Part shown: piece after piece, positions 15,250 to 30,940 of the stretch
Layout: each line of letters opens with the position of its first letter
Numbering within the stretch: position 1 is the first letter of the stretch
Assembly: GCA_022340265.1 (NCBI GenBank)
Contig: JAJDOH010000164.1
Coordinates: forward strand, 1 to 45,597
Source of the DNA: Deltaproteobacteria bacterium
Lineage (GTDB): Bacteria; Desulfobacterota; DSM-4660; Desulfatiglandales; Desulfatiglandaceae
Direction: 5' to 3'
Length of the DNA: 45,597 nucleotides
Notes under the pieces: model-generated
What the model was told of the DNA's origin: nothing
Databases searched by the model: none
Seen by the model: only the letters and a program-made list of their open reading frames with translations
Position numbers and translations under genes: made by a program

Positions 15250-16923
15250 TCAATCCAAGAGTAACAGGAGATATATCGCCGGTAAACCGTTGCCGTAGGG
15301 CGGCCAACTGATGCGGCCGATGCGGCTGCCCCAGGTGGCGTTTGTCAGGATCCGTTCATTGACAATCCAGGCCGTTAACCCACGGGAATCGGAAGGGTCA
15401 AGCGAGACCGCGGAATAGTCTCCCCACCGTTGTGCCAAATTGTTAATATTGGCAGAATAGAAAGTGTTGCTGCCAGACAGCAGCGAGCCGGGACTGGCGA
15501 TGACGCCCACGGGGTCGGTATGGAGGCGGCCCGAATACCGCACCTCGGCATTGACATTATTAGCGACATCCGTTGAGGACCAGGTCACAAAGACATCCTT
15601 GCGCCGGTTGGCGGCGATGGCGGCATTGAAATCAAAGGAGGTGTCGCTTCTGCCAAAGGTGCCGGTTTGGATGACCTGTTTATTCACGGTGTCAAATTCA
15701 TAAAATCGGCACTTGGCGAAGTCGCCACTCTTAATCGTGTGGACTTGAAAGAGGGAATTGCCTATCTGGGTGCCGGCATTGACGAAGCGGCAGTCAGAGG
15801 TGTCGAGAGTATTGATGGTTCCTGGCTGGGGCGCATTTGCAGGTATCGTATAGGCCGCCACCGGGATAGTTGCCCCAGTGCTCAGGGTGGGAGGATCCCC
15901 CGCCGAGTTCGCCAAGGTATAAATCGTCACCTTGTTATCGTTGGTTTGGGCCGCTACCAGATAGGTATTGGGATTTTCATCCAGCACCAGGGGCGGCGAC
16001 AGGGTGCCCACCAGGCCGGTGAACATATAGGGAGTCAAGGTCTGGGGCGAGCCGTTGTAGATCAGGGATTTGGCCACGGCAAACATGCGGGCGTCAATAA
16101 AAGTAGTTAAATAAAAGAAATTGGCTGTGAAAATGACTGCATCTCTGTCCAGCCCCAACTGGGGGAAATCCCAGACCCGGCCGAAAATATCAGTAACGAC
16201 CTGGTAGATATAATAAGCCCCCAAAGGATCGGCAGTTTGGGAAACCGCAAAGAAGAATCTTTGCTCCAAGGTAGGAGGATCAAGCCTGGCAAGCGCTGAC
16301 ATGATCCACCGGTTTTCATTTTGGTCGTAAATGACTCTGGGGTCATAAAAATATGTGGGAGTAAAATCCGAGGTGGGGTATCTGAAGAAATAGATCAGTG
16401 GCAGGCTGCCAATCCGGGTGTTGGGGGCGGCTTTTTCGTAAACATCGAGATGCGAGTTGGTAATCTCCACAAAATGGTTGAGGCCAACGGCGCCATGGGT
16501 GTCCGGCGGCGTAAAGTTGCCGGCAACAACCGAGTCGACGCCGTCGAAATTAATAATCTCGGTTGACAAGGTTTGCGCCAACGGGGCAGCACTCCTATTC
16601 TCAAACGTCGTTGGGGCCTCCAAAGCGCCATCTTGGGCGGCCTTATCTTTATGCGCCTTATAGGCTGCATCATCCATTGTTGGCAGGAAGGGTATGCTCT
16701 GGAAAGAAGGTACGGGGGCGGCGGGTGCCTTCAAGGCTGCTGCTCGCATCTGTTCCCAGGTTCGGACCTGGGCAGGCGGGATACTAACCTGCAAAGTCGC
16801 CTTGATTACGCCATCGGAGGAGGGAGCAACCGGTTGCGTCTCAGCCACGGGTACCGCCCCTCCCAGGATCATCAGGATAAATAGACTTGCCAGAATTGAT
16901 GAGAATATTCTTGTGGATTTCAT
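15250..16923 (-). CDS. secreted beta-rich protein with C-terminal poly-Leu tail
   Basis: A 557-residue exported protein of unknown function. Residues 1-28 are a Sec signal peptide (MKSTRIFSSILASLFILMIL...). The body begins after a Pro-rich stretch and contains PPDTHGAVGLNHFVEITNS (about 141-159), a motif I associate with large secreted repeat or propeller-like proteins, then many aromatic/beta strands (FFFAVSQTADP, DTSDCRF, VTWSSTDV). It ends WPPYGNGLPAIYLLLLLD, a short linker with five leucines one residue from the end, shared in kind with two other secreted proteins of this window. The ATG follows GAGGAG. It lies downstream of the multicopper oxidase gene on the same strand, but terminator-like hairpins separate the two. 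No catalytic motif recognised. Confidence 0.72.
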   Translation of the reverse strand: MKSTRIFSSILASLFILMILGGAVPVAETQPVAPSSDGVIKATLQVSIPPAQVRTWEQMRAAALKAPAAPVPSFQSIPFLPTMDDAAYKAHKDKAAQDGALEAPTTFENRSAAPLAQTLSTEIINFDGVDSVVAGNFTPPDTHGAVGLNHFVEITNSHLDVYEKAAPNTRIGSLPLIYFFRYPTSDFTPTYFYDPRVIYDQNENRWIMSALARLDPPTLEQRFFFAVSQTADPLGAYYIYQVVTDIFGRVWDFPQLGLDRDAVIFTANFFYLTTFIDARMFAVAKSLIYNGSPQTLTPYMFTGLVGTLSPPLVLDENPNTYLVAAQTNDNKVTIYTLANSAGDPPTLSTGATIPVAAYTIPANAPQPGTINTLDTSDCRFVNAGTQIGNSLFQVHTIKSGDFAKCRFYEFDTVNKQVIQTGTFGRSDTSFDFNAAIAANRRKDVFVTWSSTDVANNVNAEVRYSGRLHTDPVGVIASPGSLLSGSNTFYSANINNLAQRWGDYSAVSLDPSDSRGLTAWIVNERILTNATWGSRIGRISWPPYGNGLPAIYLLLLLD

Positions 16924-17314: not shown

Positions 17315-20300
17315 TTAAAAAAGCAGGAGCAGATCCAACGTTCCGGGGGCAACAACCCCCGTCACCTTGATGGGCCGCATCATGTCGTTCTCTTCGTGTC
17401 CCAGGATGTGGCAGTGCCACACGTACTCATGGCCGAAATTATACAGGCTGTTAACCGTAGGCGTTGTGGTAATCGGTTGTCCGGTTTTGGGGTCGATGTT
17501 AGTGAAATCCGCAGTGGAACCCAGCGGCTGCGAAGGGCTATAAGGTCGTATGCTGTATGGGACCGCGAAGGGAGGGGTAGGCAAATCGGCCTTCTGGGCG
17601 ATAAAGATGACCTCCAACGGGTTCATCCGGATGGTTTCCTTCCAGCCCCTCTCGTAGGGCTCGGGGGGTTTGATCGTCCCGTCCCAGCCGACCCGGTTGA
17701 TAATCTGTGCGTTGTTCAGGTGGATGTGGATGGGATGGGTGTCCACGCCATTATGGGTGACCTTCCAAAGCTGAATCTCCCCTCGACGGAAGATCTCCGC
17801 GGGCGGATCGATGTAAGAGAAACCAATTCCGTTCGATCTGGCCGGATTCGCGGTCGGGTCGAAGACTTCATACCCCAGCACAGCAGTCAACCGGCCATAT
17901 TTTCCAAACTGTTCGACTATGGCCTTCTGCTTCGCCTGCAGAGTCTTCGGTACAGTGGAACCCAGAGGCGTGTAGGTCAGAGAAGTGGCATTGATGGACG
18001 CGTGATGATTCATACCGTCGGCGGGTTGATAAGCCACCGGATAATACATTTCGGGCACGATGGGCGGGGGCTGGGATGCGACGTAAGCGTCCGGCAGTGC
18101 GTTTTGCAGGGCGATCAAATTAAAGGGGACTGGAGTTGTATTCTTTACCCGGAATTGCATGATGGTCCGGGTGTTGGGCCCATACCCGGGCAGGGTCGAA
18201 GGGGCGCCGCCCGTTTCGGTTAGATCCTCGTTGCCCGTGTAGTAGTCGTAGCGGGGCTGGAAGCCCGGGATGGGCGTGGGGGCATCGTTATAGAGAATGA
18301 TGTTTTTGCCAGCAAATCCGGAGAAATCCACGATGACGTCGGCCCGTTCCGCCGGTCCAAGTAAAATCGTTACGCCTTTAATTGCAGGATCTGCTCCCTC
18401 TAAGTTCTGGACGTTCAAAACGGTTGCACTGCCCCGGTCATAGTCATAGTTAACCGGCTGGTTGTCGCGCACCGCCACCCCCGGCAGGATACCGCCTTCG
18501 GTGCCGATCATATAGAACTTGGGGCCGGCCGTGAACGGATCCGGCACGCCGCCATCCCTGCCGTCCGTCGGCCAGGTGGGGGGATAGCTCCCATTCGGGG
18601 CCGCCGGAACCATTTTGACTTCCGTGCTGCCACTGAGGTCGACAGTGGGAACAGAAGTATAACCTCTACCACCGTTGGTGAGCGTGATGCCAGCAATAAC
18701 ACCACTAGCTACCGTGGCTGTGGCAGTAGCACCCGAACCCCCACCTCCCCTGATGACAATGGGAGGAGGCGAGGTATAACCAGCGCCAGCAGAGGTAATA
18801 GTGATACCAGAAACAATACCATTAACAATATCTACCGAGGCTGTGGCAGTCGCACCAGACCCTCCACCCGTGTCGGCCTGATACAACTGCAGGTTTAGAA
18901 AACGGCCGTTAGAGCCATTGAGGATCCGGAACCGATAGGCCTTGGGCTCCACTTCGAGGTACGGGAAAACGGTGCCATTTACCATCATGACATCCATGAA
19001 AGCTTCGGGTGTTGCACTGGTAGGGTAATTCTGGGGGTTATTCACGTCCGCCGGAGACGGCAGTGGCAAAACAGCCTGCGACACAGGCGGTGGAGGGTCA
19101 TCCGGGTCCAATATATTAGGCTGGACCCAGGGGCCGAAGTCCCAGCGGCCGTAAGGATTCAACCCGGACGGATCGGACAGGTTCTGATTTGGTTCATAGA
19201 TATGGGGAAACCAAAGATCGCCGTACGTCCCCCAGGCTAGTGTATCCCACTTGTCATCCTGGACGGTATGCACATCTTTGGGTACGAAGCCTTTGTCCTG
19301 AATGATTAAAGGAATGCCCCATTTGTAAACGCCGCCGCCCTGATCAGGAATGATTTTGGCGAGCGTTGGATTGACACCGGTATTATTGGTGCCGTCGATC
19401 AGATCATCCTCCACCGGGTCATGGATGATGTACGGTCCAACCATGCCGGCATAGACGCCGAGGCGGGTGATGCCGACGGCGTGTTCGTGGTAAAACATCA
19501 ACCGAGCGCTCTGCTGGTTGGTATAATAAATAGTCTCGCTGCCCGAACCCGGATCCGGCATGTCGGGGACGTTATGGAAACTCTGACCCTTTGTATATAG
19601 GTTCGATTCTCCGGCGGGAGTAAACCATTGCCATGGCGTCCCGTCACTGATCCAGGACGTAAATCCGCCATGGAGATGCAGGGATGTGCGGTTCTGTGTG
19701 TAATATTCGGTATAGCCTCCGCCGGTTGTCGGGTTGTACAAATACCCATACCCGGCTCCCATGAGGGTGATGTCCACCGGGAGGGGGAGATGGCCCTGCG
19801 TAGGACTCGTGCTGGTACCCAATTGATTGGTGACCAAGACCCTCACAGGCCTGTCTCGTTCGGCCACGATCAGGGGACCGCCATAATGTGGCGCCGGTGC
19901 CGAACCGGTGCCGAGGTCAACATAACCCCGGAATTTGGTGCCATGTACATTAAGTGGGTCCGGTGGTACGGTGAGCGGTCCGGGCAGGTCAGAATGCACC
20001 TGTTCAGTATAATCAACCTCGCCGAGTTTGTAATAATCACAACCCGGATACGTGGCTGTATCCTTGACCGCAAGCGGGATATATTGCCCCAGGTTGTTAG
20101 CGCCGGTTGTCCCGCCGTCATCCGATATCCCGGGCAGTGAGTCGACAAATTTACGTAATGCCGTTCCCGTGTCGCTACCTAAAGGACTGATACCGGACGG
20201 GCTGTTGGCGTACCAAGTCGCCCCCACCGGGCCGGTATTCCCGAAGGCCGGGTCGTCGCCCCACGGAAAGATGGCTACCATTGATATCAATGCCATTACC

Positions 20301-20323
20301 ACTAAAATTCCAGACTTTTTCAT
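17315..20323 (-). CDS. large secreted multicopper oxidase with Gly-rich repeat insertion
   Basis: A 1002-residue exported multicopper oxidase (cupredoxin fold), starting MKKSGILVVMALISMVAIFPW with a Sec signal; GGGGGAGAAAGAGAG precedes this ATG, while an in-frame start at 20416 gives an uncleavable basic extension. All four copper-site blocks are visible: LHLHGG (about 213), FYHEHAVG (about 278), HPIHIHLN (about 858) and HEYVWHCHILGHEENDMM (about 963-980) with the axial Met. Type 1, 2 and 3 centres should therefore be complete. Between the second and third cupredoxin regions (about 484-566) sits a two-copy GGGSGATATA...GYTS repeat. It ends APGTLDLLLLF. Such enzymes oxidise Cu(I), Mn(II), Fe(II) or phenolics with O2; neighbours favour copper. 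Confidence 0.9.
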   Translation of the reverse strand: MKKSGILVVMALISMVAIFPWGDDPAFGNTGPVGATWYANSPSGISPLGSDTGTALRKFVDSLPGISDDGGTTGANNLGQYIPLAVKDTATYPGCDYYKLGEVDYTEQVHSDLPGPLTVPPDPLNVHGTKFRGYVDLGTGSAPAPHYGGPLIVAERDRPVRVLVTNQLGTSTSPTQGHLPLPVDITLMGAGYGYLYNPTTGGGYTEYYTQNRTSLHLHGGFTSWISDGTPWQWFTPAGESNLYTKGQSFHNVPDMPDPGSGSETIYYTNQQSARLMFYHEHAVGITRLGVYAGMVGPYIIHDPVEDDLIDGTNNTGVNPTLAKIIPDQGGGVYKWGIPLIIQDKGFVPKDVHTVQDDKWDTLAWGTYGDLWFPHIYEPNQNLSDPSGLNPYGRWDFGPWVQPNILDPDDPPPPVSQAVLPLPSPADVNNPQNYPTSATPEAFMDVMMVNGTVFPYLEVEPKAYRFRILNGSNGRFLNLQLYQADTGGGSGATATASVDIVNGIVSGITITSAGAGYTSPPPIVIRGGGGSGATATATVASGVIAGITLTNGGRGYTSVPTVDLSGSTEVKMVPAAPNGSYPPTWPTDGRDGGVPDPFTAGPKFYMIGTEGGILPGVAVRDNQPVNYDYDRGSATVLNVQNLEGADPAIKGVTILLGPAERADVIVDFSGFAGKNIILYNDAPTPIPGFQPRYDYYTGNEDLTETGGAPSTLPGYGPNTRTIMQFRVKNTTPVPFNLIALQNALPDAYVASQPPPIVPEMYYPVAYQPADGMNHHASINATSLTYTPLGSTVPKTLQAKQKAIVEQFGKYGRLTAVLGYEVFDPTANPARSNGIGFSYIDPPAEIFRRGEIQLWKVTHNGVDTHPIHIHLNNAQIINRVGWDGTIKPPEPYERGWKETIRMNPLEVIFIAQKADLPTPPFAVPYSIRPYSPSQPLGSTADFTNIDPKTGQPITTTPTVNSLYNFGHEYVWHCHILGHEENDMMRPIKVTGVVAPGTLDLLLLF

Positions 20324-20449
20324 CTCTCTTTCTCCCCCTGTGTTGGGATGACTTATCCCCTTTACGGCCACCACCCTAAATGAATGCCTTATTGAGCGCA
20401 ATCTATTCTGGGTCATGCATTTACTCCCAGATTCATTGGATCAACCTGG

Positions 20450-20827
20450 TTACCAGACACTTCTCAACTTTTCCATGATCTTATCCAACTTTGCTTTTTG
20501 CTGAACCCAGTTGGCTTCGGAAGATTTTTCCAAGGCTGTCAACTCGTTGTCGGCGGCGATTTTCTGCATCTGGACGTCATTAGCCGCCAGGCTAATCATG
20601 CGTTTATTTTGCGACGGTCCAGTACTCGCTTGAATTCTCAAGTCGGCAATTTTTCCCTGGATTGCTTCCAATTCCGCGGCGATTTTCTCTTCGTAGGCTT
20701 TCCGTTCCTCAGGGGTAAAACTTTTCGCCGTCCCCGCCGAGGTATCTTTTGGCTGTTGTGCACTCCCGTAACCCGGTGCACATACCAGCAGCGCTGCCAT
20801 GAACATTATCCCAAACCATTTCATCAT
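20450..20827 (-). CDS. secreted coiled-coil protein upstream of the multicopper oxidase
   Basis: A 125-residue protein with a Sec signal (MMKWFGIMFMAALLVCAPGYGSAQ) and a mature part that is almost wholly charged helix with heptad-like leucine/isoleucine spacing (EKIAAELEAIQGKIADLRIQ ... LDKIMEKLRSVW), so a periplasmic coiled coil. No cysteine or histidine cluster suggests direct metal binding. It is 126 bases upstream of the oxidase ATG on the same strand and probably shares its promoter. It resembles small periplasmic chaperone-like proteins only in general architecture. Function unknown. Confidence 0.7.
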   Translation of the reverse strand: MMKWFGIMFMAALLVCAPGYGSAQQPKDTSAGTAKSFTPEERKAYEEKIAAELEAIQGKIADLRIQASTGPSQNKRMISLAANDVQMQKIAADNELTALEKSSEANWVQQKAKLDKIMEKLRSVW

Positions 20828-21225: not shown

Positions 21226-21747
21226 ATGAAAAGAAAAATTTTGTACTGGATGCTGACATCGTTATTTTTGTTGATCGCAGTTGCCGTTTGTGCGGAAACC
21301 ATGCAGGATGTTCAAGCCCATAAGAACTGCAAGTACTGTGGCATGGACCGGGAAAAATTTGCTTATAGCCGGATGCTGGTTGAGTATTCAGATGGCTCCA
21401 GCGTCGGTTTATGCAGCATCCACTGCACGGCTGTCGAGCTGGCCCAAGCCTTTGATCAGCAGCCCCAAGCCATTATGGTGGCGGATTACAACAATAGGAA
21501 TTTGATCGATGCAGAAGAAGCCTACTGGGTGATCGGCGGTAAAAAGCCGGGCGTCATGACCAAAACGGCCAAATGGGCATTTGCCGACAGGAAGGAAGCG
21601 GAAGCCTTCATCAAGGACAATGGCGGCAAACTCGCTAACTTTGATGACGCCATGCAGGTCACTTACGAGGATATGTATAAAGATACCAAGATGATACGGG
21701 ACAAGCGGGCCAAAATGAAGGCCATGAAGAAGAAGTCCATGCAGTAA
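21226..21747 (+). CDS. NosL-like periplasmic copper-binding protein (first copy)
   Basis: A 173-residue exported protein, signal residues 1-25 (MKRKILYWMLTSLFLLIAVAVCA). The NosL core starts with HKNCKYCGMDREKFAYSRM (CxxCGM near residues 36-41) and continues with VEYSDGSSVGLCSIHCTA. It ends in a Lys/Met-rich tail (KRAKMKAMKKKSMQ). NosL proteins bind Cu(I) and deliver it to nitrous oxide reductase, but no nosZ, nosD or nosY is in the window, so a general copper-chaperone role is more likely. The ATG follows AAGGAGGGAG. Lead gene of a plus-strand operon to 25532. Confidence 0.85.
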   Translation: MKRKILYWMLTSLFLLIAVAVCAETMQDVQAHKNCKYCGMDREKFAYSRMLVEYSDGSSVGLCSIHCTAVELAQAFDQQPQAIMVADYNNRNLIDAEEAYWVIGGKKPGVMTKTAKWAFADRKEAEAFIKDNGGKLANFDDAMQVTYEDMYKDTKMIRDKRAKMKAMKKKSMQ

Positions 21748-21850
21748 CCCTTGAGTATATCCGGGCCAGTGGGAAATTAATGACGATGAGACACAACTTC
21801 CCCCTGGCCTTGCCTATCTCCGGCTGACTCTCTGGCGCCACGGAGTTTTC

Positions 21851-22339
21851 ATGAAACATTATCAATCCTTTATCTTAGTCAGTGTATGGCTTATTTTGTC
21901 AATTTGCCCTCTTGCAGGCGCTCAAGACGTGCTACCCGCCAAGATCGCCCCGAGGGATAAATGTCCGGTTTGCGGCATGTTTGTGGCGAAATTTCCTGAT
22001 TTTGTCGATCAGATAGTCTTTAAGGACGGCACCCACGCATTTTTCGATGGCGTCAAAGATATGATGAAATATTATTTCGACCTGCCGAAATATAATCCCG
22101 GCAAAACCAGGGCCGACATTGCCGCCATTTTTGTGACGGATTATTATTCTCTCAAGTTGAGCGATGGATTAAAGGCCTGGTATGTGGTCGGGAGTGACGT
22201 CTATGGTCCCATGGGCAAAGAGCTCATGCCTTTTAACGATGAAGCCGCGGCCAAAGAATTTAAAGTCGATCATAAGGGCACCGCAATTTTATCATTTCAG
22301 GAGATCACGCCTGCATTGATAAAGACTCTGGATCAATAA
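21851..22339 (+). CDS. NosL-like periplasmic copper-binding protein (second copy)
   Basis: A 162-residue exported protein with a Sec signal (MKHYQSFILVSVWLILSICPLAGA). The NosL signature RDKCPVCGMFVAKFPDFVDQ lies near residues 36-54, followed by VFKDGTHAFFDGVKDMMKYY and a YVVGSDVYGPMG segment. It differs clearly from the copy 104 bases upstream: it lacks the LCSIHC cysteine pair and is Asp/Lys-rich, so the two are diverged paralogues and may bind metal with different affinity. The role is inferred as copper capture in the periplasm; the metal has not been shown. Confidence 0.85.
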   Translation: MKHYQSFILVSVWLILSICPLAGAQDVLPAKIAPRDKCPVCGMFVAKFPDFVDQIVFKDGTHAFFDGVKDMMKYYFDLPKYNPGKTRADIAAIFVTDYYSLKLSDGLKAWYVVGSDVYGPMGKELMPFNDEAAAKEFKVDHKGTAILSFQEITPALIKTLDQ

Positions 22340-25581: not shown

Positions 25582-25609
25582 AAAAAAAGCACCTTCCCAC
25601 GGAAGATGC
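25582..25609 (-). terminator. intrinsic terminator of cusBA
   Basis: Read on the minus strand: GCATCTTCC (25609-25601), loop GTG, GGAAGGTGC (25597-25589) with one G-U wobble, then seven T (25588-25582). It lies 45 bases past the cusA stop at 25654. Confidence 0.75.
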
Positions 25610-25653
25610 CTGATGCCGCGTTGCGCTCAATAAATTACAGTCGATACGATGCC

Positions 25654-28600
25654 TTAAGGCTTCTTTTTAAGCTCGAAATGCCATTTCCAGATTTCATAGA
25701 TGGCGGGGTAGATCATCAACTCCAGGAGAAAGGAGGTGAAAACCCCGCCGATCATCGGGGCGGCGATGCGTTTCATGACGTCGGAGCCGGTCCCCGCGGC
25801 CCACATGATGGGGATCAGCCCCAAAAGCAGGGTGGCGACGGTCATGAACTTGGGTCGGATCCGCTTGGCGGCGCCGTCAATGATGGCGATGTGCAACTGG
25901 TCGCGGCTCTTGAGCCGCCCTTCCGCTTTCGCCTGGGCGTAGGCCAGGTCCAGATACAGGAGCATGAAGATGCCCGTTTCCGCATCTACCCCCAGCAGAG
26001 CGATCAAACCGACCCACACCGCGATGCTCATGTTATAGCCCAGCAGATACAGGAACCAGACGGCGCCCACCGCGGAGAACGGCACCGCCAGAATGATGAG
26101 CATGGTCTTAGCGATGGACCGCGTGTTCAGATAGAGAAGCAGGAAGATCAGGAACAGGGTCAGGGGGACCATCAGCAGCAGACGCTGCTTCACCCGTTGG
26201 GCCGCCGCGTACTGGCCGCTCCACGAGATGGCGTACCCCGACGGCAGTTTCATCTTGTCCGCGAGCAGGCGGGCCGCTTCCTCCACGTAGCCGTTGGGGT
26301 CCCGATCGGCAATGTCGATGTACACGTAACCCGTCAGCAGGCCGTCCTCATCCCGGATCATGGCCGGCCCGCTGGCCGTCTTGATGCTGGCCAGCCGCCC
26401 CAGGGGGATTTGCCGCTTGCCGCCGTCCGCCGGCACCAGAACGCGTTCCAGAGCGCTGAAATCGGACCGGAAATCCCGCTGGTAGCGCACATTGACATTG
26501 TAGCGTTCCCGCCCTTCCACGGTCGTGGTCACATTCTCCCCGCCGATGGCATTGGCGATCACGGCCTGGACCTCTGCGATGCTCAAACCGTAGCGCGCCA
26601 GTTCCTGCCGATTCCAATCGAAATCGAGAAAATAGCCGCTCCCGGTGCGCTCAGCAAAGACATTCCGGGTTCCCTTGACGCTGGGCAGCAGAGATTCGAT
26701 TCGCAAACCGATTTCTTCGATCGTGTTGACATTGGCTCCGGAGATCTTGATCCCCAGAGGGGTCCGCAAACCGGTGCTCAACATCTCGATGCGGCCCTTG
26801 ATGGGCATGGTCCAGCCGCTTGCCAGGCCCGGAAGCGTCAGGGCCTCATTCATCTCATTAATGAGTTTTTCCTGGGTCATATGAGGCCGCCAGGCTGATT
26901 TTGGCTTCAGGGTGATCACCGTTTCGAGCATGGATAGCGGGGCCGGATCGGTTGAGGTCTCGGCCCGGCCCGCCTTGCCCAGGACCCGGTCCACCTCGGG
27001 AAAGCCCTTGATGATACGGTCGGTGACCTGGAGCAGTTTCTGAGCTTCGGCGATGGAAATTCCGGGCATGGTGGAAGGCATGTAGAGAATGGAGCCTTCC
27101 TCCAATGGCGGCATAAACTCCGATCCTAAATGCGAATAGACCGGAAGCGTGATGAGCACCAGGGCCAAGGCCCCGCCGATCACCCACCATTTGCGGCGCA
27201 GCGACCAGGTGACCAACGGTTCATAAAGCCGGATCAAGCGCCGGCTGATGGGGTGTTTTTCTTCGGGATAAATGGTGCCCACGGCTACGGCGTTGGTTAT
27301 CCGGCTCAACCAGGAAGGCCGAAAGTTGAAATTCTGCACGTGGGTGAACAGGAGCCGCAAGGCCGGGTCCAGGGTAATGGCCAGAAGCGCGGCCACGATC
27401 ATGGAGAGGTTCTTGGTGTAGGCCAGGGGCTTGAACATCCGGCCTTCCACGGACTCCAGGCTGAGCACCGGTAGAAACGACACCGCAATCACCAGCAGAG
27501 CGAAGAAGCTGGGCCCTGCCACTTCCTTGACCGCCTTCACCACCACCTCCTGGTAGTCTTCCACGCGTCCTGTCTGTTGCCATTTCTCCAGCTTCTTATG
27601 AACCTGCTCCACCACCACGATGGCCGCGTCCACCAGCGCCCCCACCGCGATAACGATACCCCCCAGGGACATGATGTTCGCCGTGATTCCCATCATCCGG
27701 AACGGGATAAAGGAAATCAGCACCGCCACAGGGATGGTGATCACGGGAATGATGGCGCTGGGAAAGTGCCACAAAAAAATCAGGATCACCAGGGAGACGG
27801 TGATCAGGACCTCCACCAGAGTAAATTTCATGTTGCTGATAGCCCGCTGGATCAAATCGGAGCGGTCATAAATGGGCACAATCTCAACGCCGTCGGGAAG
27901 CCCCGGTTCGATGGCCTTGATCTTGGCCTTGACCCGTTCAATGACGTCCAGGGCGTTTTGGCCCTCCCGCATCACAATGATCCCGGACACCACCTCCCCG
28001 GTTCCGTCCAGGTCGGTGACCCCGCGCCTCAGGTCCGGCCCCATGACAACCCGCCCGATATCCTTGACGCGTATGGGGGTGCCGTCCTGGCTGGCTGTCA
28101 GGACGATATTTTCAAAATCCCGAAGGGACCGGGCGTAACCCCGGCCCCGCACCATGTACTCAGTGCCGCCGAATTCGATCAGACGCCCGCCCACTTCCTG
28201 GTTGCCGCCGGCTACGGCCTTCACCACCTGAGAGATGGACAGGTTGTAGGCTTGCAACCGGTTGGGATCCACATTGACCTGGTATTGCCGGACGAATCCC
28301 CCCACCGGCGCCACCTCCGCCACCCCGGGCACGGCTTTGAGGTAATAGCGCAGGTACCAGTCCTGGTAAGAGCGCAGTTCCTCCAGGCTGTGTTTGCCGG
28401 TGCGATCCACCAGGGCGTACTGGAAAACCCAGCCCAGGCCGGTGGCGTCCGGCCCCATTTCGGTCTTGACGCCGGCGGGCAGGCGCGGCAGCACCCCGGA
28501 CAGGTATTCCAAGGTGCGGGATCGGGCCCAGTATATATCGGTGCCGTCTTCGAAAATGACATAAACGTACGAGTAGCCGAAATCCGACACGCCGCGAACG

Positions 28601-28839
28601 GATTTCACCCGGGGGGCGCCCACCATGGTGGTGACAATGGGGTAGGTCACCTGATCTTCCATGATGTCCGGGCTGCGGTCCCAGCGGGAATAGATGATCA
28701 CCTGGGTGTCGGTGAGATCCGGGACGGCGTCCAGGGTCAAATGCTGCATGGACCACCATCCCATCATGCAGGCTGCCGCCGTGATGATGAAGACGATGAC
28801 CTTGTTGTGCACCGAAAAATCGATGATCCGGTTAATCAT
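25654..28839 (-). CDS. cusA: CusA-type heavy-metal RND efflux pump (Cu/Ag)
   Basis: A 1061-residue inner-membrane proton antiporter of the HME-RND family. It exports Cu(I)/Ag(I) through a CusB adaptor. Seen: the N-terminal helix and ADLTDTQV-type porter start (DAVPDLTDTQVIIYSRW), the proton-relay Asp in GALVDAAIVVVEQ (near 403) and the Glu in GVDAETGIFMLLYLD late in the chain. The three copper methionines of E. coli CusA have counterparts: MPSTMPGIS (near 585), APLSMLETVI (near 636) and IEMLSTGLRTPLG (near 683). This favours Cu/Ag over Zn/Co/Cd (CzcA). Twelve helices are expected. It overlaps cusB by 8 bases; no cusC/tolC is in the window. Confidence 0.95.
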   Translation of the reverse strand: MINRIIDFSVHNKVIVFIITAAACMMGWWSMQHLTLDAVPDLTDTQVIIYSRWDRSPDIMEDQVTYPIVTTMVGAPRVKSVRGVSDFGYSYVYVIFEDGTDIYWARSRTLEYLSGVLPRLPAGVKTEMGPDATGLGWVFQYALVDRTGKHSLEELRSYQDWYLRYYLKAVPGVAEVAPVGGFVRQYQVNVDPNRLQAYNLSISQVVKAVAGGNQEVGGRLIEFGGTEYMVRGRGYARSLRDFENIVLTASQDGTPIRVKDIGRVVMGPDLRRGVTDLDGTGEVVSGIIVMREGQNALDVIERVKAKIKAIEPGLPDGVEIVPIYDRSDLIQRAISNMKFTLVEVLITVSLVILIFLWHFPSAIIPVITIPVAVLISFIPFRMMGITANIMSLGGIVIAVGALVDAAIVVVEQVHKKLEKWQQTGRVEDYQEVVVKAVKEVAGPSFFALLVIAVSFLPVLSLESVEGRMFKPLAYTKNLSMIVAALLAITLDPALRLLFTHVQNFNFRPSWLSRITNAVAVGTIYPEEKHPISRRLIRLYEPLVTWSLRRKWWVIGGALALVLITLPVYSHLGSEFMPPLEEGSILYMPSTMPGISIAEAQKLLQVTDRIIKGFPEVDRVLGKAGRAETSTDPAPLSMLETVITLKPKSAWRPHMTQEKLINEMNEALTLPGLASGWTMPIKGRIEMLSTGLRTPLGIKISGANVNTIEEIGLRIESLLPSVKGTRNVFAERTGSGYFLDFDWNRQELARYGLSIAEVQAVIANAIGGENVTTTVEGRERYNVNVRYQRDFRSDFSALERVLVPADGGKRQIPLGRLASIKTASGPAMIRDEDGLLTGYVYIDIADRDPNGYVEEAARLLADKMKLPSGYAISWSGQYAAAQRVKQRLLLMVPLTLFLIFLLLYLNTRSIAKTMLIILAVPFSAVGAVWFLYLLGYNMSIAVWVGLIALLGVDAETGIFMLLYLDLAYAQAKAEGRLKSRDQLHIAIIDGAAKRIRPKFMTVATLLLGLIPIMWAAGTGSDVMKRIAAPMIGGVFTSFLLELMIYPAIYEIWKWHFELKKKP

Positions 28840-30940
28840 GCTGATCCCCCCCGCCGCCAGGGGAGCGATTTGGTGACGGCACAGATGGTTGCTCCTCTGA
28901 CTGGGACGGCGGAGCTTGCGGAGCCGCGGGCTTCATCCGGGATTTCAAGGACTGGTCCTCGTGCAGGTCCAGGTTTTTCCCCTCAGGTATGGCCCGGATT
29001 GATTCCCGCCTCAACCTCAACAACAAATCAGGATTCGTCGGCACTTCAGAAAAGGTGTGAGGTAATGCGTCCTCTGGGCTTCGGGATAAATAATATTCAG
29101 GGTCGTCGTCAAACCTTTGTTTGCATCCGTCGGTATCAAAGTAATAAAGTTTTCCCTGGTATTCGCTGGTCCTGCCTGCCTGTTTGGCCGGACCCGTTGC
29201 AACCGGCAAGCCGCACACCGGGTCTCTGGTCGTTCCGGGAACAACCGGCGTCTGGAAACCGCCGCTTTCACCCTGGGCTTCCTGCTGAATGTAGCGCTCC
29301 GGATTTTTGTCGAACTGCTTATTGCAGCTATAACTGCAAAAATAATAAGTTTTCCCTTTGTACGTGCTGGTCAGACCCGCGGCTTTTGCCCGTGCTTCGT
29401 CCAATTCGTGGCCGCACACCGGGTCTTTGGTTTTGACGGCCTGAGCGTCCTGCCCCCGGTCACCGGCCGCACCGCTGGCAGTCTTCTGGAACCCGCCTGG
29501 TTTTGCGGCGTAGCGATCGGGATTTTTTTCAAAATGCTCTTTGCATCCCGCGGAGCAGAAATAGTAGGTCTGGTTTTTATAAGTGCCCTGAAAGCCGGCA
29601 GCTTTGGCCTTGCTTACATCCACATTCAGGCCGCAGACGGGATCCTTGGTGATCTCGCCGAACATCCCCGCCGCCGCCAATTTCATCCGGCTCTCGGAGT
29701 CGATGAGGAAATTGGCGGAGATCACGATGCGCTCACCGGGCTCGAGACCTCTTACGATTTGCACCCGGTCTCCCAGGCGCCAGCCGGTCTCCACCTGACG
29801 CGGAGAGAAATAACCATTGCCCCGATCCACAAAAACGGTCTGCTTGAGCCCTGAATCCATAATGGCGTCAACCGGGATATTGACCGTGGGAGGTATACTG
29901 ACGGGAACCTCCACGTCCACAAACATCCCGGGCCGAAGGACAAATTGCGGATTGTCTACCTCCAGACGGACCTTTACGGTCAGTGTAGCAGGGTCGAATT
30001 CGGGCAGAATTTCGCTCACCGTCGCCATATACGTCTCGTTGTGGTCGGCGAGTGTCACCTTTACCTTATCTCCCGGCCGGACGTAGTTGGCTTCATCTCC
30101 GAATAAATCCGCCAGGATCCAGACCCGGCTCAAGTCCGCCAGCAGGTAGAGTTCCTCACCGGTGGTTATTTTTTGCCCCTCGGTGATGTTCCGGGCCAGG
30201 ACAAAACTGGTAGCCGGGGCGCTGAGGATAATCTCTTGAGTGATTGCCTTGCTACGGACCAGGTCTTTGAGCTGCCGCCTGCTCACGCCCAGATCCATCA
30301 AGCTGTATTCAGCTGCTTCTTTCTGAGCTTCCAGATAGTTCTTTTGGGACGCCGGTATTGACTGACCCTTCGGCAGGTTTTTTATGGCATAGACCGCATA
30401 ATAGTATGTCTGCAACACCGTAAACAAATCCTTACTGAAATACGTAGCCAGAGGTTCATCCTTCCTGACCAGACTTCCGGTGGTGTTATCGTATAGCTTC
30501 ATGATAAAACCATCTTTGAAGGCGTTCAACCGATAGGTGCGAGTCTCATCCGCGGCCACCGCGCCAAGCGATCTAAGGGTATAGGTCCGGGGAGATTTTT
30601 CCACCTCGGCCACCCGCACCCCGATGATCTGCTGTTTTTCCGGGGTGATCTTGACGGACCCGGGAGACAAGGCCACTGAAACAGTTTGACCGTCATCGGC
30701 GTAAACCGGCTCCATCTTCATGCCACAGGGAGCCAGACCCGGCTCCTGAGAGGTATGGGCAGGATTCATGGGATCCACATAGTGCAAGATGCGGCGGCCC
30801 CCGACAGTCTTTTGTTCTGCGACTGTTTTCCCGTACCAGGAACCGGCAAGGAACAATACTGCCATTAAAATCAGCAAACCCGGCACATACCAGTACTTTT
30901 TCAGGGTTTCTCGGGCCTGCTGCCCCTTCGATTTTTCCAT
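28832..30940 (-). CDS. cusB: CusB-type periplasmic adaptor with HMBD and three YHS domains
   Basis: A 702-residue adaptor that links CusA to an outer-membrane channel. An N-terminal membrane anchor (about 17-37) precedes a heavy-metal-binding motif (HYVDPMNPAHTSQEPGLAPCGMKMEP, about 54-80) similar to that of other CusB-like adaptors. The barrel-sandwich and beta-barrel parts follow (about 100-420). Then three YHS-type units begin DPVCGLNV (about 430), DPVCGHEL (about 505) and DPVCGLPV (about 572). The first two have YYFCSxxC; the third reads YYFDTDGC and so lacks one cysteine. YHS units bind soft metals. The protein is about 300 residues longer than E. coli CusB (about 400), and nearly all the excess is this metal-binding tail, which ends in a Pro/Ser-rich segment. 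Confidence 0.93.
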   Translation of the reverse strand: MEKSKGQQARETLKKYWYVPGLLILMAVLFLAGSWYGKTVAEQKTVGGRRILHYVDPMNPAHTSQEPGLAPCGMKMEPVYADDGQTVSVALSPGSVKITPEKQQIIGVRVAEVEKSPRTYTLRSLGAVAADETRTYRLNAFKDGFIMKLYDNTTGSLVRKDEPLATYFSKDLFTVLQTYYYAVYAIKNLPKGQSIPASQKNYLEAQKEAAEYSLMDLGVSRRQLKDLVRSKAITQEIILSAPATSFVLARNITEGQKITTGEELYLLADLSRVWILADLFGDEANYVRPGDKVKVTLADHNETYMATVSEILPEFDPATLTVKVRLEVDNPQFVLRPGMFVDVEVPVSIPPTVNIPVDAIMDSGLKQTVFVDRGNGYFSPRQVETGWRLGDRVQIVRGLEPGERIVISANFLIDSESRMKLAAAGMFGEITKDPVCGLNVDVSKAKAAGFQGTYKNQTYYFCSAGCKEHFEKNPDRYAAKPGGFQKTASGAAGDRGQDAQAVKTKDPVCGHELDEARAKAAGLTSTYKGKTYYFCSYSCNKQFDKNPERYIQQEAQGESGGFQTPVVPGTTRDPVCGLPVATGPAKQAGRTSEYQGKLYYFDTDGCKQRFDDDPEYYLSRSPEDALPHTFSEVPTNPDLLLRLRRESIRAIPEGKNLDLHEDQSLKSRMKPAAPQAPPSQSEEQPSVPSPNRSPGGGGDQHD

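Follow-up and report, generated by a model that had tools for sequence, protein, structure and literature searches.

A long multicopper oxidase encoded in a 45,597-nucleotide stretch of DNA from a deltaproteobacterium (contig JAJDOH010000164.1; the whole of this stretch is referred to as the window) contains an insert that an earlier note, made from the sequence alone, had described as two copies of a Gly-rich unit of the kind usual in phage-like proteins. The locus thus raises the question of what this repeat is, how an enzyme accommodates it, and what it might do there. The explanation that we favor, at slightly better than even confidence, is that the insert is one compact two-unit β module of the phage-virion type, which would sit as a closed pair in a surface loop of the oxidase and act in contact or as a spacer. 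The oxidase and its insert are laid out as follows.

17315 to 20416, minus strand: multicopper oxidase open reading frame, 1033 amino acids from the ATG at 20416
18629 to 18868, minus strand: two-unit module, amino acids 517–596, strand order a1 b1 c1 a2 b2 c2
18746 to 18868, minus strand: unit 1, amino acids 517–557 (41 residues)
18629 to 18745, minus strand: unit 2, amino acids 558–596 (39 residues)

The repeat is present in the sequence as described, and its matches to a unit profile, to the PHROGs families and between the bases of its own copies all exceed chance. A profile of the 35-residue unit, built from relatives and begun with a 35-residue consensus, matched the insert with E values of 3e-12 and 3e-8, plus a leading half unit. 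The first 12 residues of the two units are encoded by DNA that is identical at 31 of 36 bases, and 11 of 24 residues are identical in the stretches that follow these starts. Tandem Repeats Finder, run at its default score, reported nothing on the insert, and we therefore consider the two copies to have diverged at the DNA level. The position previously given for the repeat, residues 484–566, fits a protein that begins at M32 (MKKSGIL..., at 20323), which is our guess for the likely start of the oxidase; counted from M32 the insert comprises residues 486–565, whereas it comprises residues 517–596 when counted from the ATG at 20416. Residue numbers in the structure models are those of the ATG count minus 31.

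Several lines of evidence confirm the identity of the host protein. Pfam Cu-oxidase_2 matched the oxidase (E 1.6e-10), and its best sequence match in the PDB was the CotA laccase (E 2.6e-38). In a VIA-align search with the predicted model, the first 23 entries had Z scores of 28.7–29.4 over 475–491 residues at an rmsd of 2.2–2.8, and almost all of them were CotA-type laccases; the core is therefore laccase-type and, in the model, has the fold of three cupredoxin domains of a CotA-like oxidase. The copper-ligand motifs HLHGG, YHxH, HPIHxH, and HCHxxxHE are all present, and their His and Cys residues are invariant or at least 90% conserved in an alignment of 50 sequences. In its three-domain fold and copper motifs the protein thus resembles the CotA spore-coat laccase and the Bacillus bilirubin oxidase (1gsk and 7z5p); however, CotA-type enzymes have about 500 residues and the query has 1033, and the segment between the aligned stretches on either side of the insert is 18 residues long in CotA (270–287) and 163 in the query (517–679). 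Because the core still matches CotA, the fold evidently tolerates the insert.

The insert follows the strand LNLQLYQA of domain 2 and precedes TEVKMVPA. In the whole-protein model the last residue of this strand is 483 in model numbering (A514), and the first residue of the insert is 486. Consistent with this, alignment with oxidases that do not carry the insert showed a plain loop at the same place, between NLQLYYADP and TEVKMVPA. Because many oxidases have such a plain loop there, we regard the insert as a loop insertion that breaks no strand, and the earlier suggestion that it interrupts a strand of the cupredoxin fold does not hold.

We call the oxidase a CotA-like protein of the long OmpB/MofA-like type because its relatives are long, because two of them are named Geobacter, and because of the way in which PMC5566968 describes OmpB and MofA. 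That paper presents OmpB of Geobacter sulfurreducens and MofA of Leptothrix as homologous outer-membrane or extracellular oxidases and links such copper oxidases to the cycling of iron and manganese (PMC5566968). The relatives of the query are mostly 900–2100 residues long and come from many phyla, with two records named Geobacter among the matches, and the query resembles OmpB and MofA in being a long CotA-like oxidase. It differs from OmpB in that a Pfam scan (E 0.1) found no fibronectin III domain in it, whereas its relative L052 does have an fn3 domain, and in that little sequence follows its last copper motif. The EXXE motif of OmpB has one counterpart in the query, EPYE at 919, which could easily occur by chance. 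The sequence that follows M32 is hydrophobic, and the protein is probably exported; overall, it is likely to be a metal-related oxidase that acts outside the cytoplasm.

We also noted that the C terminus of the oxidase (17315–17350, minus strand) is a poly-leucine tail, LDLLLLF. A neighboring protein of 557 amino acids without a Pfam family ends in AIYLLLLLD (15250–15290, minus strand), and another open reading frame of the same genome, L208, ends in VVIPSLLLLLL. Judged by sequence, these could possibly be sorting or anchoring tails; the corresponding DNA pattern was not enriched (52 matches compared with 104 in the control).

The oxidase is surrounded by two NosL-family proteins, an ABC system, a CusA/CzcA pump, and a CusB-like adaptor. 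The genes referred to below are the following.

20450 to 20827, minus strand: small protein with a weak match, below the cut-off, to the sll1863 stress-response family
21226 to 21747, plus strand: NosL-family protein 1 (Pfam NosL, E 1.2e-16)
25654 to 28839, minus strand: CusA/CzcA heavy-metal RND pump (TIGR00914, E 0)

This setting is shared with relatives. A homologue of the sll1863-like protein adjoins the oxidase in L014 and L015, a stretch homologous to NosL-family protein 1 lies near the oxidase in L014 and L005, and the pump is found near the L014 oxidase (tblastn, 92% identity over 782 amino acids), the gene order of pump, NosL, sll1863-like protein, and oxidase being conserved in L014. 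The two NosL-family genes are in tandem (21226–22339, plus strand), upstream of an FtsX/ABC pair, and the CusB-like efflux adaptor (702 amino acids; 28832–30940, minus strand) contains three stretches that matched YHS. A 430-amino acid open reading frame at 25606–26898 on the plus strand is most likely no gene because it is antisense to the CzcA pump gene both here and in L014.

We next consider the fold of the insert. It was all β both in the model of the whole protein and when the module was modeled alone, in agreement with the β element that had been predicted. Within the whole-protein model its pLDDT was about 80–94 and its strands span model residues 489–498, 503–514, 523–525, 530–539, 542–553, and 560–562; the module alone had a mean pLDDT of 85.6, with low values at the ends, and a pTM of 0.69. 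Each of the two tandem units, 39–41 residues long, would thus consist of a long β hairpin formed by strands a (GATATAxV) and b (VxGITxT), a GGxGYTxxP turn, and the short strand c after GYTxxP.

The module is widespread in the virion proteins of tailed phages. In PHROGs, 21 families matched the insert at an E value of 1 or better (best, 1.4e-17), and these are virion, head, baseplate wedge, connector, and tail fiber families; phrog_701 (virion structural protein), phrog_708 and phrog_2885 (baseplate wedge), and phrog_460 (head closure) resembled it by profile with E values from 1.4e-17 to 1.1e-12. A search of BFVD with the module returned 33 predicted viral proteins at an E value of 0.001 or better, the first eight with TMq values of 0.74–0.85 over 77–86 columns, and one match, a cyanophage neck protein, superposed with an rmsd of 1.0 over 77 columns at 53% identity. 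The whole-protein model recovered three of the same phage proteins (81–83 columns, rmsd 1.4–1.6). The repeat unit was also searched in viral contigs, where at least 474 stretches were confirmed among the 600 matches listed, and in related oxidases (see below). The profile and the predicted fold thus both point to the phage-virion repeat that the earlier note had recognized in the insert. In phages, however, the repeats are part of large virion proteins, whereas in the query two units occupy a loop of a bacterial oxidase beside metal-handling genes; we therefore regard it as the same module in another setting.

Solved structures gave no counterpart. The PDB, searched with the single sequence and with a profile, yielded no match to the module better than an E value of 0.14; Foldseek against solved structures reached an E value of only 1.1, and the best Z score in VIA was 3.0 among 224 chains. 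The absence of PDB matches does not prove that the fold is new. No Pfam family matched the module of the query, and across 66 members of the repeat Pfam gave stray weak matches only, each to at most 3 of the 66. Thus, we found neither a Pfam entry nor a solved structure for this repeat, common though it is in phage proteins, and our literature search found no paper on the module. We put forward only tentatively, and with less confidence than the explanation for this locus, the more general proposal that a small β fold without a solved representative found here is common to tailed-phage virions and bacterial enzymes, and that its closed pair is a permutable loop cassette, in even copies only, which OmpB/MofA-like oxidases have used repeatedly at a few loops.

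Closure of the two units on each other would bring both ends of the module together, so that any circular permutation of it could be accommodated in a surface loop with the enzyme fold left intact; longer inserts would be whole numbers of pairs. A closed two-unit module therefore predicts an even number of units and all three permutations of strand order, neither of which is predicted by an open β solenoid or stalk in which the units are stacked end to end and even numbers merely reflect the duplication of an ancestral pair. Among the internal arrays of the oxidases, query included (n = 40), the rounded profile coverage was even (2, 4, 6, or 10 units) in 37, and in all 40 once three unclear arrays were read by eye (the first arrays of L063 and L067, with 3.46 read as 4 and 1.43 read as 2, and the L069 array at 377, with 5.4 read as 6, some of its half units being degenerate). 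These counts are not independent events, but there were at least 13 changes of state at one of the two main sites and at least 8 at the other; the counts cover neither N-terminal arrays (24 rows, many diverged or partial, such as L046, L056, and L055 with 7, 5, and 5 hits and L053, L051, and L043 with 1) nor the single weak hits behind the oxidase core of L032, L068, L088, and L091. Read by eye, the inserts at the query loop start with strand a in five oxidases (the query, L014, L015, L016, and L052), with strand b in 14, and with strand c in one (L067), so that all three circular permutations are present at this loop.

In viruses, among the 94 listed arrays that are uncut (8 of 102 near contig ends were excluded), the number of hits was even in 77 and odd in 17, and the rounded coverage was even in 70 and odd in 24. 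Phage arrays are thus mostly even and sometimes odd, and some of the odd ones look real: tail-sheath-like proteins were found with 3 units, others with 4. An even number in viruses is a bias and not a law. The open stack can draw on these odd viral arrays, as well as on the existence of arrays of 4, 6, and 10 units. However, it would separate the two ends of the loop, and closure accounts better both for the occurrence of all three permutations at a single loop and for unit numbers that are even although the gains were many and separate; we consider the open stack quite improbable. Two further signals were dropped as support for unit pairs. Identity between units at distance two exceeded that at distance one only weakly in the oxidases (14 of 19 arrays; 38 of 2000 shuffles reached the mean difference) and was not higher in viruses (12 of 43 arrays), where the direction was the opposite. 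An alternation of hairpin length is clear in both arrays of L042, in the first arrays of L052 and L064, and in L057 and is absent from other arrays, such as that of L061.

The earlier view that the unit is foreign to multicopper oxidases is not supported. We built a tree of 81 rows from the repeat-free core (the query and the best 80 of 139 relatives, ranked by tblastn, which may favor query-like rows; short and duplicate open reading frames were dropped). Repeats were found at the query loop in 20 of these 81 oxidases, at a second loop (about query amino acids 815–824) in 14, and at any site in 46, with minimum numbers of state changes on the tree of 13, 8, and 21, respectively. The insert is present in every member of the clade formed by the query, L014, and L015 (SH-aLRT 100), whereas it is absent from the query loop in the rows that come next in path distance, L075, L074, and L076, and the Geobacter-named L074 and L076 have no repeat. 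The possibility, raised at the outset, that the nearest subfamily has the insert as a standard feature thus holds for the innermost clade and fails just beyond it.

Such recurrent gain and loss, with at least 13 changes at the query loop, would also be expected if the insert were neutral loop filler, i.e. if low-complexity Gly/Thr/Ala repeats grew and shrank wherever a loop permits it, with neither pairing nor function under selection. Very few residues of the insert are charged, and it shares 47% identity with the L014 insert compared with 77% for the oxidase core, indicating that it diverges faster than the core; both observations fit filler as well. Neutral filler nevertheless does not account for the even unit numbers at internal sites, for a confident β model common to phage proteins, or for G, A, Y, and P positions that are conserved over 66 rows, and we judge it unlikely, somewhat less so than the open stack.

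The base composition of the insert suggests a more recent event. Its third-position G+C content is 0.375 compared with 0.668 expected from the codon use of the gene itself (0 of 2000 draws were as low), and sliding windows over the insert are the lowest of the gene. One explanation is that the copy in the query was lately swapped in or rewritten from another gene, genome, or phage. Phage proteins widely carry the module, whereas among the genome of the query and 98 relatives it was found in only 2 of 99, in the oxidase both times. However, the module occupies the same loop in L014 and L015, in the same strand phase, and its presence is therefore older than the split of these proteins; the inserts of most other oxidases show no or mild skew; and no donor was found, tblastn of the repeat against phage records having returned nothing, a result in which the low-complexity filter probably hides matches. 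Recent exchange, which is compatible with the closed module, is in our view a less than even prospect, slightly ahead of neutral filler, and the sequence data fit a site of insertion that is old and a module that was recently rewritten or exchanged there.

With respect to function, the insert lacks His, Cys, Met, and Trp and has just 2 Tyr, and a metal-binding role was rejected on this composition. That the module might be a copper- or electron-handling extension of the enzyme is suggested by its host, a copper oxidase within a metal-efflux island; given its composition and its occurrence in phage virion proteins, we regard this as very improbable indeed. The absence of His, Cys, Met, and Trp leads us instead to read the insert as a contact or spacer module. 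By this reading, it would decorate the loop after LNLQLYQA of an oxidase in a copper and heavy-metal gene island and would most likely serve at the surface as a contact with envelope, matrix, or mineral or as a spacer towards them, and not as part of the copper site; the surface or matrix contact suggested earlier is a plausible, putative role. For the role of the large non-catalytic parts of such copper oxidases, a phage-type module in fixed loops and even copies offers a concrete cassette that can be cut, swapped, or permuted, and parity offers a rule for recognizing the true structural unit of a repeat common in phage proteins.

Finally, of the 21 genomes reached through the loci, 17 have the module. 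In the genomes of L014, L015, L016, L020, L027, and L062 it occurs only in open reading frames of oxidase length, and in that of L069 it occurs also in several shorter ones. In this verrucomicrobial genome, a two-unit module in the same strand phase as the query lies near the N terminus of other proteins (L193 and L176).
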